Shown one piece after another: positions 60,631 to 64,000 of a stretch of 64,000 bases of DNA. The translations under genes were made by a program, and so were the position numbers. The DNA is from an uncultured Armatimonadota bacterium. Its GTDB lineage: Bacteria > Armatimonadota > Fimbriimonadia > Fimbriimonadales > Fimbriimonadaceae. The DNA lies in assembly GCA_903927025.1 (NCBI GenBank), contig CAIYLG010000022.1, positions 62,001 through 126,000 on the forward strand. The letters are read 5' to 3'. Numbering within the stretch: position 1 is the first letter of the stretch; every line of letters begins with the position of its first letter. The notes below the pieces were generated by a model. It searched no databases and had not been told where the DNA came from. It saw only the letters and a program-made list of their open reading frames with translations.

Positions 60631-61779
60631 TTAGCCGCGACGCCTGCCGCCACCACTTGTGTGAGTGGAGGTTCGGCTCCCTCCAAAGGAACTGGAGTGG
60701 CCGCCAAAGCTAGAGTGGGTCGACCCTCCGAAGTTGGAGTGTCCACCCCCATGAGTGCTTGAGCCGAAGCTCGAATGCGACCCGCCAGACGAGCGAGTTC
60801 CACCGAACGAAGAGTGCGATGACGAACTAGCGCCAAAACTCGAGCGCGTGGATCCCGAGTACTTCGAGCCACTGGAGGATGGTCGGGTTCCGGACCCGAA
60901 GCTTGAGTGCGACGAGCCCGAATATCGGGAGCCACCAAGCGTGGAGTGCGAACTGTTGGTTCGTGTTCCAAAGCTTGAGTGCGTCGTGGACGTGCGCGTA
61001 TAGCGAGAAGTCGTGTTTACATGACCGTTGCTGTATCGCGATGCTCCGAATGAGTGACCCGAGTTGTATCGGCTACCGCCATAACCACCGGAGTGACCGA
61101 TCACATGTCCGACCGTTGTATGCACCGCATATCCGCCATGAACACCGCGATAAATCGGCAGCCTTCCCCATGCTCCATGGTGACCATAAAATCCGTAGAA
61201 CACCGGACCGCCGCCCAAGTAAACGTGAGTGTGCCAGCCAAGGTAGAGGTTGAAGAAGATTCCAGGCGTGTAGACAACTCCGTAAGTCCACCCATAAGGC
61301 CTATCGACTACGACATAGCCTGGCCACGGGGCGTAAACCACGAAGTTGTCGAATACCTCCACCGAGCTGTGATAGTGAAAGTTGATTCCAACAACCTGAT
61401 AAGGGCCATCACCCTCAATTCGCAGCTGTGGATGCCGGTCACGCTCGTAGTCAGCGTTTTCGAACAGTCCGCTTAGCTTTCGATCTCGCTCTGCGGCAAG
61501 GTCGCTGAGCGCGCTATTGAACTGCGGACCCTCTACATTGGGGTCTGCTCCGCCGGCAATTGCTTTGTTATAAGTGTCCTGGTCGGCCGCAACCTGATCT
61601 GCGTAATCCTCTTCGATCGCACGCCTCTCATCCATGTGGGCGTACTGATAGGTTCCGATTCGGTAGATGTGCCGAGTGCCTACCAAAAAGTAGACTCTCT
61701 CCGCACTGGCCATTGCTGGCGCCGCCAAAAAGAGGGCGGCGGCTGAAGCCACGATGCTGATCTTGGTGAAAATATTCAT
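60631..61779 (-). CDS. Exported His/Ser/Gly-rich protein, paralogue of the anti-sigma sensor domain
   Basis: 382 aa. A clean Sec signal (MNIFTKISIVASAAALFLAA, cleavage after ASA). Residues about 28-200 match the outer part of the upstream anti-sigma protein: IYRIG...DERRAIEEDYADQV, LSDLAAERDRKLSGLFENAD, FVVYAPWPGYVVVDRPYGWTYG, GGGPVFYGFYGHHG. The last 180 residues are low-complexity with many S-R-Y-S and H-S-S-F-G units, histidine- and glycine-rich, and end GGGRRRG. This suggests a secreted or wall-associated protein with a flexible, perhaps metal-binding tail. Family not recognised. AAGGGA lies 10 bases before the ATG. It follows the sigma/anti-sigma pair and is the best candidate for their target. 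Confidence 0.75.
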   Translation of the reverse strand: MNIFTKISIVASAAALFLAAPAMASAERVYFLVGTRHIYRIGTYQYAHMDERRAIEEDYADQVAADQDTYNKAIAGGADPNVEGPQFNSALSDLAAERDRKLSGLFENADYERDRHPQLRIEGDGPYQVVGINFHYHSSVEVFDNFVVYAPWPGYVVVDRPYGWTYGVVYTPGIFFNLYLGWHTHVYLGGGPVFYGFYGHHGAWGRLPIYRGVHGGYAVHTTVGHVIGHSGGYGGSRYNSGHSFGASRYSNGHVNTTSRYTRTSTTHSSFGTRTNSSHSTLGGSRYSGSSHSSFGSGTRPSSSGSKYSGSTRSSFGASSSSHSSFGGTRSSGGSHSSFGSSTHGGGHSNFGGSTHSSFGGHSSSFGGSRTSTHTSGGGRRRG

Positions 61780-61879
61780 CCTAATGTGTTCCCTTGTGGG
61801 TCTACCTTGAAATGACCCGTTCCCTGCACTGGCTGTTGCACCTCAGAATAAATTGTGGCGCAACAGAATGCAGCCAAAT

Positions 61880-63319
61880 TCAGTGACCGGAGGACCCACG
61901 CAAATATTTGGATCGAGGCGCCTCATAGGAACCGATTCGATCTTGACTGGGTGGGTAATGAGAGCCTTCGAGCGTATGGCTGTATCGCGACGGCTGGCTC
62001 GGATTTGAGGCGTTGGGCCGGGTGCTTCCTTCAAGACTCCGGCTGTAGCGCGATCCCCCAAACACGGAGGTAACCGTGGTCTTGGGTTCTTGAGTCTTAT
62101 GCGAGATTATTGAAATCGACTTTGAAGAGGAAAGCGTTCGTGCGTACCGAGATGCCGTTTCAGCTCGCGACCGAGACCGTCTCAGCGTGTGGATTCGGTA
62201 GTTCCCGTTGCCATTGCGTCGAATTTCATCGGCGACGATCGGTCCGTTTCGCCCTTCGAGTCCATAGAATACGGGTTGACCGGATTGGGAGTGCACTTCG
62301 CGCCAGGATTGATATTCCTGCTGAAATTCGTCGGGGCCATAGTGGCGTCCGTACGTCCATCCATACGGCGATTCCTGAGGCTCGTAGCCTGGCCACGGCT
62401 CAACGACAACGAAGTCCTCTTCGGGGTCGGGGACTCCATCTGCACGAGAGCTGAACTGGACCACCGGGCACGGCCCGCAAGTCTCGACCTTGAGTTCGGG
62501 GTGCTTTTCCCTAAGGTCGTCTGCGATCGGATAGAGTTCCGCAAGACGGCGCTCACGTTCAGCTGATAGGTCCTCAAGGTCATGTTTAAGCTGCTTCTCT
62601 GACGGGTAATGCCCCGAACCAGACTTCAGAGTGTGGCTGTACTTATCTCTCTTCTCCGCCACAGCATCAGCGTAGGATTGCTCGATCTGCTTTCTCTGGT
62701 CTTGATGGGCATCTTTCTCGTCCACTTTGTACACGTGAGATGCGCCCAAAATCAGACAGAGCTTCATCGCTCGAACTCCACTGTCTGCGCTTCCACCGGC
62801 ATCATTTGAAGCCACAAGCTCGGTGTCTTTGTGTTGTTCTCGAGGAGACAAAACAGAATGCGAGATCGAGTTAGGCGCACTGCGTCGGGTTTCCTCTGCC
62901 GGAGCCCTGTGTTCCGTGCCTACAGAAGCTACGAAATTGTCCGATCTGCTCCTAACGGTCGTCGGCGTACCTACAGCAGTTCGAATCGATGAACTTCTGT
63001 AGGCCCCGTATCCAGCTAAAAGGATCAGTCCAAACAAAGCCGATCCTGCTGCCAGCCTAAACCTTGGCTGGTGCACGCCCCACTTGGAACGCTCCCTCTC
63101 TGCGCGTCTTGAGGCTCGCAATTCAAGGATCGCGGCTCTGCAGGCTCGACAGTGCCCCAAGTGCAGAAGAACCTCGTCGCGTTCTCGCTTTGAAGCCGTG
63201 CCATCGACAAAATGATCTAAAGCAGACGGGGGAAGGCATCCATCACCCGAAGCGTGCCTTAACTCCTTTCCCCACTCCCGTTCGTGAGAAGTGGTCTCCA
63301 ATGGCTTGTGGTCCTTCAA
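61880..63319 (-). CDS. Anti-sigma factor with zinc finger, membrane helix and a large sensor domain
   Basis: 479 aa. Residues 35-68 form the zinc-finger anti-sigma domain (H53, C57, C60 in LLHLGHCRACRAA), and 87-107 a membrane helix (LAAGSALFGLILLAGYGAY). Residues about 180-360 outside match the secreted protein at 60631-61779 in the same order (DQRKQIEQSYADAV; LEDLSAERERRLAELYPIAD; PWPGYEPQESPYGWTYG; GQPVFYGLEGRNGP), and the C-terminal tail also has SRYS repeats. The start overlaps the sigma gene end by four bases (ATGA), so they are translated together. A sensor in the envelope that frees the sigma factor is the natural reading; the signal is unknown. Confidence 0.85.
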   Translation of the reverse strand: MKDHKPLETTSHEREWGKELRHASGDGCLPPSALDHFVDGTASKRERDEVLLHLGHCRACRAAILELRASRRAERERSKWGVHQPRFRLAAGSALFGLILLAGYGAYRSSSIRTAVGTPTTVRSRSDNFVASVGTEHRAPAEETRRSAPNSISHSVLSPREQHKDTELVASNDAGGSADSGVRAMKLCLILGASHVYKVDEKDAHQDQRKQIEQSYADAVAEKRDKYSHTLKSGSGHYPSEKQLKHDLEDLSAERERRLAELYPIADDLREKHPELKVETCGPCPVVQFSSRADGVPDPEEDFVVVEPWPGYEPQESPYGWTYGRHYGPDEFQQEYQSWREVHSQSGQPVFYGLEGRNGPIVADEIRRNGNGNYRIHTLRRSRSRAETASRYARTLSSSKSISIISHKTQEPKTTVTSVFGGSRYSRSLEGSTRPNASNPSQPSRYSHTLEGSHYPPSQDRIGSYEAPRSKYLRGSSGH

Positions 63320-64000
63320 TGCCTCACCTCAAGGAACAGCCAAGCCATGCAGCCCAGGTACGGGGCGAGTTTGAGCATGGCGCGCCGGAGGATTGGAGCC
63401 GCACCTTCTCGCTTCTGGATCGCGGACGTCTCTTCGGTGGTCAGACGGATTCCGCTCGCCTCCATCCGCTGTATCGCCTCGTCGACTCCTTCCGGGCCGC
63501 CAAGGTATTCAGGAGCAGCCACCAAAAGATGGGCCAAAAGCTTCTCTCGGCCGCGGAGAAAATGGCTTCTAACCGTCGCGGGCTTCAACCCAAGCAGGTC
63601 TGCAGCCTCGTCCAGGGAGTTGCCCTGATAAACGAGTTCAACCACCGCGCATTCTGTTGGGTTACAAGCCTGCCTCATGAGATCCAAGAGCCCGCGCACC
63701 TCTTCACGGAGGTGCACCTGATGGTAAGGTCCCGGATCGCAGTCCTGATGTTGCACGCAGAACGATTCACACCAGCTTTCCAGCGAAATACTTCGGGATT
63801 CTTTCTTAAGATCGCGTTCGTAGTAGTTCCGAACCGCGTTAGCTGCGATCGCGATGGCAAAGGCCTCCGGGGGACACTCGCCACGAAAGGATTCGAAAGA
63901 GCGAGCCAATGCAGCCAACACTCTGGATACAACCTCGTCACGATGATCTCGATTACGAATCCTTTTGGAGATATACCTTTCTAGGGTCGGCAATACCGAT
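63316..64000 (-). CDS. ECF-type RNA polymerase sigma factor (N-terminus outside window)
   Basis: The frame is open to base 64000, so the first residues are missing; a TTG at 63993 is the only possible start inside the window and is unlikely to be real. Region 2 (DEVVSRVLAALARSFESF and AFAIAIAANAVRNYYERD) and region 4 (LVYQGNSLDEAADLLGLKPA then TVRSHFLRGREKLLAHL) are clear. After region 4 there is a tail of some 60 residues ending in a hydrophobic segment (LAPYLGCMAWLFL), unusual for an ECF sigma. It is coupled by a four-base overlap to the anti-sigma gene. Confidence 0.85.
   Translation of the reverse strand, partial: SVLPTLERYISKRIRNRDHRDEVVSRVLAALARSFESFRGECPPEAFAIAIAANAVRNYYERDLKKESRSISLESWCESFCVQHQDCDPGPYHQVHLREEVRGLLDLMRQACNPTECAVVELVYQGNSLDEAADLLGLKPATVRSHFLRGREKLLAHLLVAAPEYLGGPEGVDEAIQRMEASGIRLTTEETSAIQKREGAAPILRRAMLKLAPYLGCMAWLFLEVRH

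Follow-up and report, generated by a model that had tools for sequence, protein, structure and literature searches.

The window, a 64,000-nucleotide stretch of a genome assigned to Fimbriimonas (Armatimonadota) by its named relatives, ends with a three-gene locus that probably (a probability of about 0.6) encodes a surface-sensing sigma/anti-sigma switch whose main output is a set of secreted homologues of its own sensor; sensor and products would share a target, and the product would damp the response. The parts of this switch, an ECF sigma factor and a ZAS anti-sigma factor, are ordinary, in contrast to its new sensor domain, and it is wired as a variation on the known SigI/RsgI principle. 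All evidence consists of sequences and predicted structures, and the genomes compared are mostly metagenome assemblies.

An open reading frame check places all three genes on the minus strand, at the positions given by the first-pass annotation, in the 5′ to 3′ order ECF sigma factor, anti-sigma factor and exported protein. The sigma factor gene occupies positions 63316–64000 (minus strand) and runs beyond the window end to about 64101 (full frame L003 7317–8102), coding for up to 261 aa. The product is an ECF sigma factor, with sigma70 regions 2 and 4 and an ECF-type profile (TIGR02937, 51.6 bits against a cut-off of 42.9, E = 8e-14; Sigma70_r2, PF04542, and r4_2, PF08281, above cut-off). The stop codon of this gene is overlapped by the TTG start codon of the anti-sigma factor gene (61880–63319, minus strand), which encodes a membrane protein of 479 aa. 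The cytoplasmic part of this protein contains the zinc-binding zf-HC2 motif of ZAS proteins (residues 35–61; 63137–63217, minus strand; PF13490, 24 bits, cut-off 22.2), and the protein is assigned as a ZAS anti-sigma factor on this motif and on the predicted fold of its N-terminal part. The motif is followed by a single hydrophobic, presumed membrane-spanning segment at about residues 87–106 (63002–63061, minus strand; hydrophobicity maximum at residues 89–105) and by an outer domain at about residues 184–370 (62210–62770, minus strand; profile match E = 3.1e-69), which is homologous to the secreted protein. The predicted fold of the N-terminal part resembles RslA in the complex with its sigma factor (3hug; Foldseek probability 0.94, E = 1.2, 37 residues at 1.0 Å). 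The gene overlap and the predicted 3hug-like fold suggest that the anti-sigma factor binds and inhibits the adjacent sigma factor.

The third gene (60631–61779, minus strand) encodes a paralogue of 382 aa comprising a signal peptide, the shared domain and a Ser/Gly-rich tail with a basic end, as delineated by the reading frame, BLASTP and tail composition; the plain signal peptide read at the N-terminus indicates probable export. The shared domain has about 190 residues and spans residues 26–215 of this protein (61135–61704, minus strand; profile match E = 2.7e-80). The anti-sigma factor and the secreted protein can be aligned by BLASTP over 286 residues with 33% identity (149 bits, E = 4e-45). 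Four motifs had been noticed in the same order in both proteins; all four lie inside this alignment and are, therefore, parts of one continuous homologous domain. The AlphaFold2 model of the secreted domain, built with 18 family members as input, is confident (mean pLDDT 84.8, pTM 0.81). The outer part of the anti-sigma factor, in its own weaker model, has its elements in the matching order, with a pair of strands followed by two long helices, a short helix, a second pair of strands and one more helix. The residues that are invariant across the domain family persist in the anti-sigma copies.

The tails of the two proteins are similar in composition. The softest part of the earlier description was that both end in SRYS-type repeats: this holds for the secreted protein, where the number of RY[S/G/T] repeats was matched in 0 of 2000 shuffled tails, and is marginal for the window anti-sigma factor, the tail of which has a weak excess (73 of 2000 shuffles); the anti-sigma factor of the sister genome gives 1 of 2000. 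Judged by its sequence, the anti-sigma factor appears to carry the whole mature secreted product outside the membrane, that is, the folded domain together with the low-complexity tail.

The shared domain constitutes a new, lineage-specific family without a name, according to comparisons with Pfam, NCBIfam, and PDB sequences and structures. The 18 domain members have no consistent Pfam match above the curated cut-off, and the domain is unmatched in an NCBIfam search with the window proteins, which agrees with the first reading that no named family covers it. Matches to DUF4136 (one member, 6e-4) and Cor1 (four members, weak) are inconsistent across the family and were rejected as its identity. 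The sole match in a PDB sequence search, the FliJ coiled coil (E = 0.38), was disregarded. Structure comparison of the domain with the PDB yielded no convincing match, with a best Foldseek E value of 0.67 and a best Z score of 4.6. The helical hairpins of ZraP (3lay; Z = 4.0, RMSD 3.1 over 65 residues) and CnrX (4wwf; Z = 3.7, RMSD 3.6 over 72 residues) are within the range for unrelated helices; CnrX is also part of a sigma/anti-sigma system.

A second Fimbriimonas genome, the sister genome G004, keeps the locus at the same site, between the same RibD/DHFR-like and 2-oxoacid oxidoreductase genes, with the sigma factor and anti-sigma factor genes followed by five tandem secreted copies. The G004 sigma factor is 58–60% identical to that of the window, and the G004 anti-sigma factor, of 638 aa, has the same outer domain. 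The proposal that a sensor is encoded alongside free, secreted versions of its own outer domain is thus borne out in both genomes. No close sigma factor is present in the other genomes of the genus (next best E = 3.6e-9), and a two-sequence profile found no orthologous sigma factor in genomes G012, G019 and G007. The C-terminus of each of the two sigma factors is extended, and the extension closes with a conserved hydrophobic AMLKLAPYLG... sequence (63316–63390 in the window; L023 4640–4710); this is unusual for a sigma factor, and the extension may serve for contact with the membrane or with the anti-sigma factor.

A profile search found 18 copies of the domain in four of the 20 Fimbriimonas genomes; it is absent from the rest of the class (113 genomes searched) and of the phylum (291 searched, 287 besides the four). 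A scan of 84,980 species genomes with one peptide pattern, which distant members may escape, returned contigs of only three of the same four genomes, and a scan of viral contigs found no relatives of the domain. The domain is confined to part of one genus and is not widespread without the sigma factor; a wide spread of that kind would have spoken against the first-pass annotation. The expectation that most copies would belong to ECF-linked pairs failed: eight of the 18 copies in the profile search are at the sigma locus, in two of the four genomes, and the other ten are elsewhere. One copy, that of G019, is close to the end of its contig. In the phylogeny, neither anti-sigma domain falls within the ten secreted subfamily-A copies; both are placed outside them (fork support of 81/88), on long branches. 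The simplest reading of the sequences is one fusion before the two genomes diverged, in a region of the tree that is weakly settled.

Judging by the predicted promoters upstream, the sigma factor appears to act directly on the secreted genes, as the feedback loop suggested earlier would have it. A bipartite ECF-like pattern, GCAACA-N14/15-[AG][GT]GTC, precedes the secreted gene of the window, all five array copies of G004 and two copies of the window genome that are unlinked to the sigma locus; the motif was derived by inspecting these same upstream regions, and the sites were taken from a genome pattern search. The predicted promoter of the window gene, GCAACA-N15-GGGTC, is located at 61814–61839 (minus strand), 33 nt from the start codon, and its matrix score of 17.4 was reached in 0 of 300 shuffles; the scoring matrix for the window-genome sites was built solely from the five G004 array copies. 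All five of the latter have TGCAACA, a spacer and G[GT]GTC, 35–38 nt from the start codon; GCAACA and G[GT]GTC are separated by 14 or 15 bases, and the spacers are unrelated. The two unlinked copies of the window genome, on contigs C26 and C60, have weaker sites (5 and 4 of 300 shuffles as high, respectively) at a similar distance. Altogether, promoter-like sites precede eight of the ten subfamily-A secreted genes, at a similar distance and with unrelated spacers. The AAC core of the motif is consistent with the AAC triad reported for ECF −35 elements (PMC6056542).

The pattern has 27 sites in the window genome and 34 in G004 (20 and 21, respectively, for a reversed control). With 27 sites on both strands of 5.25 Mb, the chance that any one upstream region of 200 nt has a correctly oriented match is about 1 in 2000, and because of this the matches before all three subfamily-A secreted genes of the window genome appear far beyond chance; this should be read with care, the pattern having been widened for C60, and the narrower G[GT]GTC form derived from G004 matches two of the three. 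The predicted regulon would consist almost entirely of secreted paralogues of the outer half of the anti-sigma factor and would form a closed loop, since the remaining genomic sites, among those fetched, lie nearly all within long open frames on either strand. A matrix scan for autoregulation found no site of the same promoter type upstream of the sigma operon. Most of the copies linked to BlaR1 genes are without a promoter site; before the C2a copy, there is a weak match, differently spaced from the gene. An unlinked secreted copy in G012 is preceded by a near match, GCAACA-N15-GCGTC (L027, C19, upstream of 7616); G012 has no orthologous sigma factor, so a different one may recognize sites of this kind in that genome.

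The closest known parallel is found in Clostridium thermocellum: its RsgI6 bears a GH10 module, and the GH10 xylanases xyn10Z and xyn10Y are under the control of sigma-I6 (PMC4711584). As in this SigI/RsgI control of the cellulosome, the outer module of the window anti-sigma factor belongs to the same family as the secreted targets of the sigma factor (PMC4711584; the promoters are predicted here). The homology and the predicted promoters point to a similar, RsgI-like mode of working, with an outer module common to the sensor and the secreted targets. However, SigI/RsgI systems employ a SigI-type sigma factor and outer modules of known carbohydrate-binding or hydrolase families, whereas the window encodes an ECF sigma factor and a ZAS anti-sigma factor, which bears a new domain and the whole mature product, tail included. 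The anti-sigma factor is not of the RsgI type: zf-HC2 is its sole Pfam match and its partner matches the ECF model. In the SigV/RsiV system of Bacillus subtilis, too, an ECF sigma factor is paired with an anti-sigma factor in the membrane, and the outer domains of the latter, DUF4163 and DUF3298, occur also in proteins unlinked to sigma factors (PMC5014341). In contrast to the window system, RsiV binds lysozyme, and PMC5014341 does not describe a main regulon of neighbouring secreted paralogues; the Pfam search reported no sequence match between the shared domain and DUF3298. The predicted model of the zinc-binding, presumably sigma-binding cytoplasmic part resembles ZAS anti-sigma factors of the RslA type (Mycobacterium tuberculosis), from which the window protein differs in its outer domain, a separate and new family. 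Literature searches worded for a sensor that has a soluble, secreted paralogue returned no such case.

In the proposed mechanism, the zinc-binding cytoplasmic part of the anti-sigma factor would hold the ECF sigma factor, and a full copy of the secreted protein, domain and tail, would be displayed outside the membrane. A signal at the outer part would release the sigma factor, which would then transcribe the secreted paralogues, including the unlinked ones, from GCAACA-N14/15-[AG][GT]GTC promoters. The sensor would report on the same target that the products act on, and accumulating product would occupy this target and damp the response. A common target is proposed because one domain is common to sensor and products, as with RsgI in clostridia; this parallel favours a shared ligand, with the product damping the signal by competition. 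The domain homology, the conservation of the locus in two genomes and the promoter pattern are seen in the sequences; sigma binding by the anti-sigma factor, export, promoter use by the window sigma factor, the signal and the direction of the feedback are the steps that we infer.

The homology of sensor and product (E = 4e-45), the preservation of the locus in a second genome with five secreted copies, the restriction of the sigma factor to two genomes of the genus, the promoter-like sites with their AAC core and the RsgI precedent were counted for this switch. Counted against it were the ten of 18 copies found elsewhere than at the sigma locus, including five beside BlaI/BlaR1, the derivation of the motif from the very regions in which it is counted, the near-match promoter in G012, which lacks an orthologous sigma factor, and the sigma operon, which lacks such a promoter. 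The G012 and G019 copies, which exist without a window-type sigma factor, one of them with the near-match promoter, would also fit an accidental capture, in which a neighbouring secreted domain was fused to the anti-sigma factor as a passive extension and the secreted genes are read by another sigma factor. Such an origin seems quite unlikely, given that the fusion has been retained together with the sigma factor gene at the same site in two diverged genomes and that the family-wide conserved residues persist in the anti-sigma copies.

The persistence of these invariant residues also speaks for homotypic sensing, in which the anti-sigma factor, through its outer domain and its tail, would co-assemble with the secreted paralogues, and the switch would gauge the amount or assembly of its own product with no separate ligand. 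This more unusual reading is kept in play by the retention of the low-complexity tail besides the folded domain on the anti-sigma factor, and low-complexity Ser/Gly/Arg/Tyr tails seem suited to assembly. It is tentative, however, as the anti-sigma domain of the window is the most diverged copy (branch length of 1.68 against a median of 0.35). Rather doubtful is its fuller form, with the anti-sigma factor as a membrane-tethered copy of the product and the regulon as a surface structure that measures itself and is composed of a single lineage-specific family, the fold of which would be new.

The sigma/anti-sigma switch with a shared target, as the preferred reading, offers a compact and testable case of signalling made from the very family that it controls, with a predicted promoter and a small, nearly closed regulon. 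Natural variants are available, with one or five products and with copies that have no switch. If the sensing is homotypic, the system would show cleanly, in a bacterium, how a product can measure itself on the surface of the cell. The analysis also defines a new domain family in Armatimonadota, a poorly studied phylum.

Five of the copies unlinked to the sigma locus, in three genomes, are located between a DnaJ-domain gene and a pair of genes for a BlaI repressor and a BlaR1 peptidase; together with the C119 copy of G004, they form a distinct subfamily with support of 100/100. The BlaI/BlaR1-M56-adjacent sites of these three genomes hold one or two domain genes each, whereas the DnaJ, BlaI and BlaR1 genes of G019 are neighbours with no domain gene in between; the loci of this comparison are L030 3051–8383, L025 3570–9330, L028 3265–7361 and L160 2460–6277. 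The shared domain was sought in the adjoining BlaR1 proteins and gave no match; these proteins have peptidase M56 and M48 matches only. An orthologous BlaR1 was found only in the same four genomes as the domain family. This co-occurrence was set aside as probably due to shared ancestry, because the BlaI/BlaR1 pair of G019 stands beside DnaJ without a domain gene.

At the C-terminus of all 16 secreted copies, a small cluster of basic residues precedes a closing G, N or H (RRRG, KKKKG, KKKGN and so on; 60631–60660 in the window). This cluster is absent from both anti-sigma copies, and the tails preceding it differ among the secreted copies; it could be an export or anchoring signal. Two single copies have divergent tails behind the conserved domain (L023 9082–10233 and L030 5506–6840), with GGPGGVIRPG units in one and REQERQ in the other.
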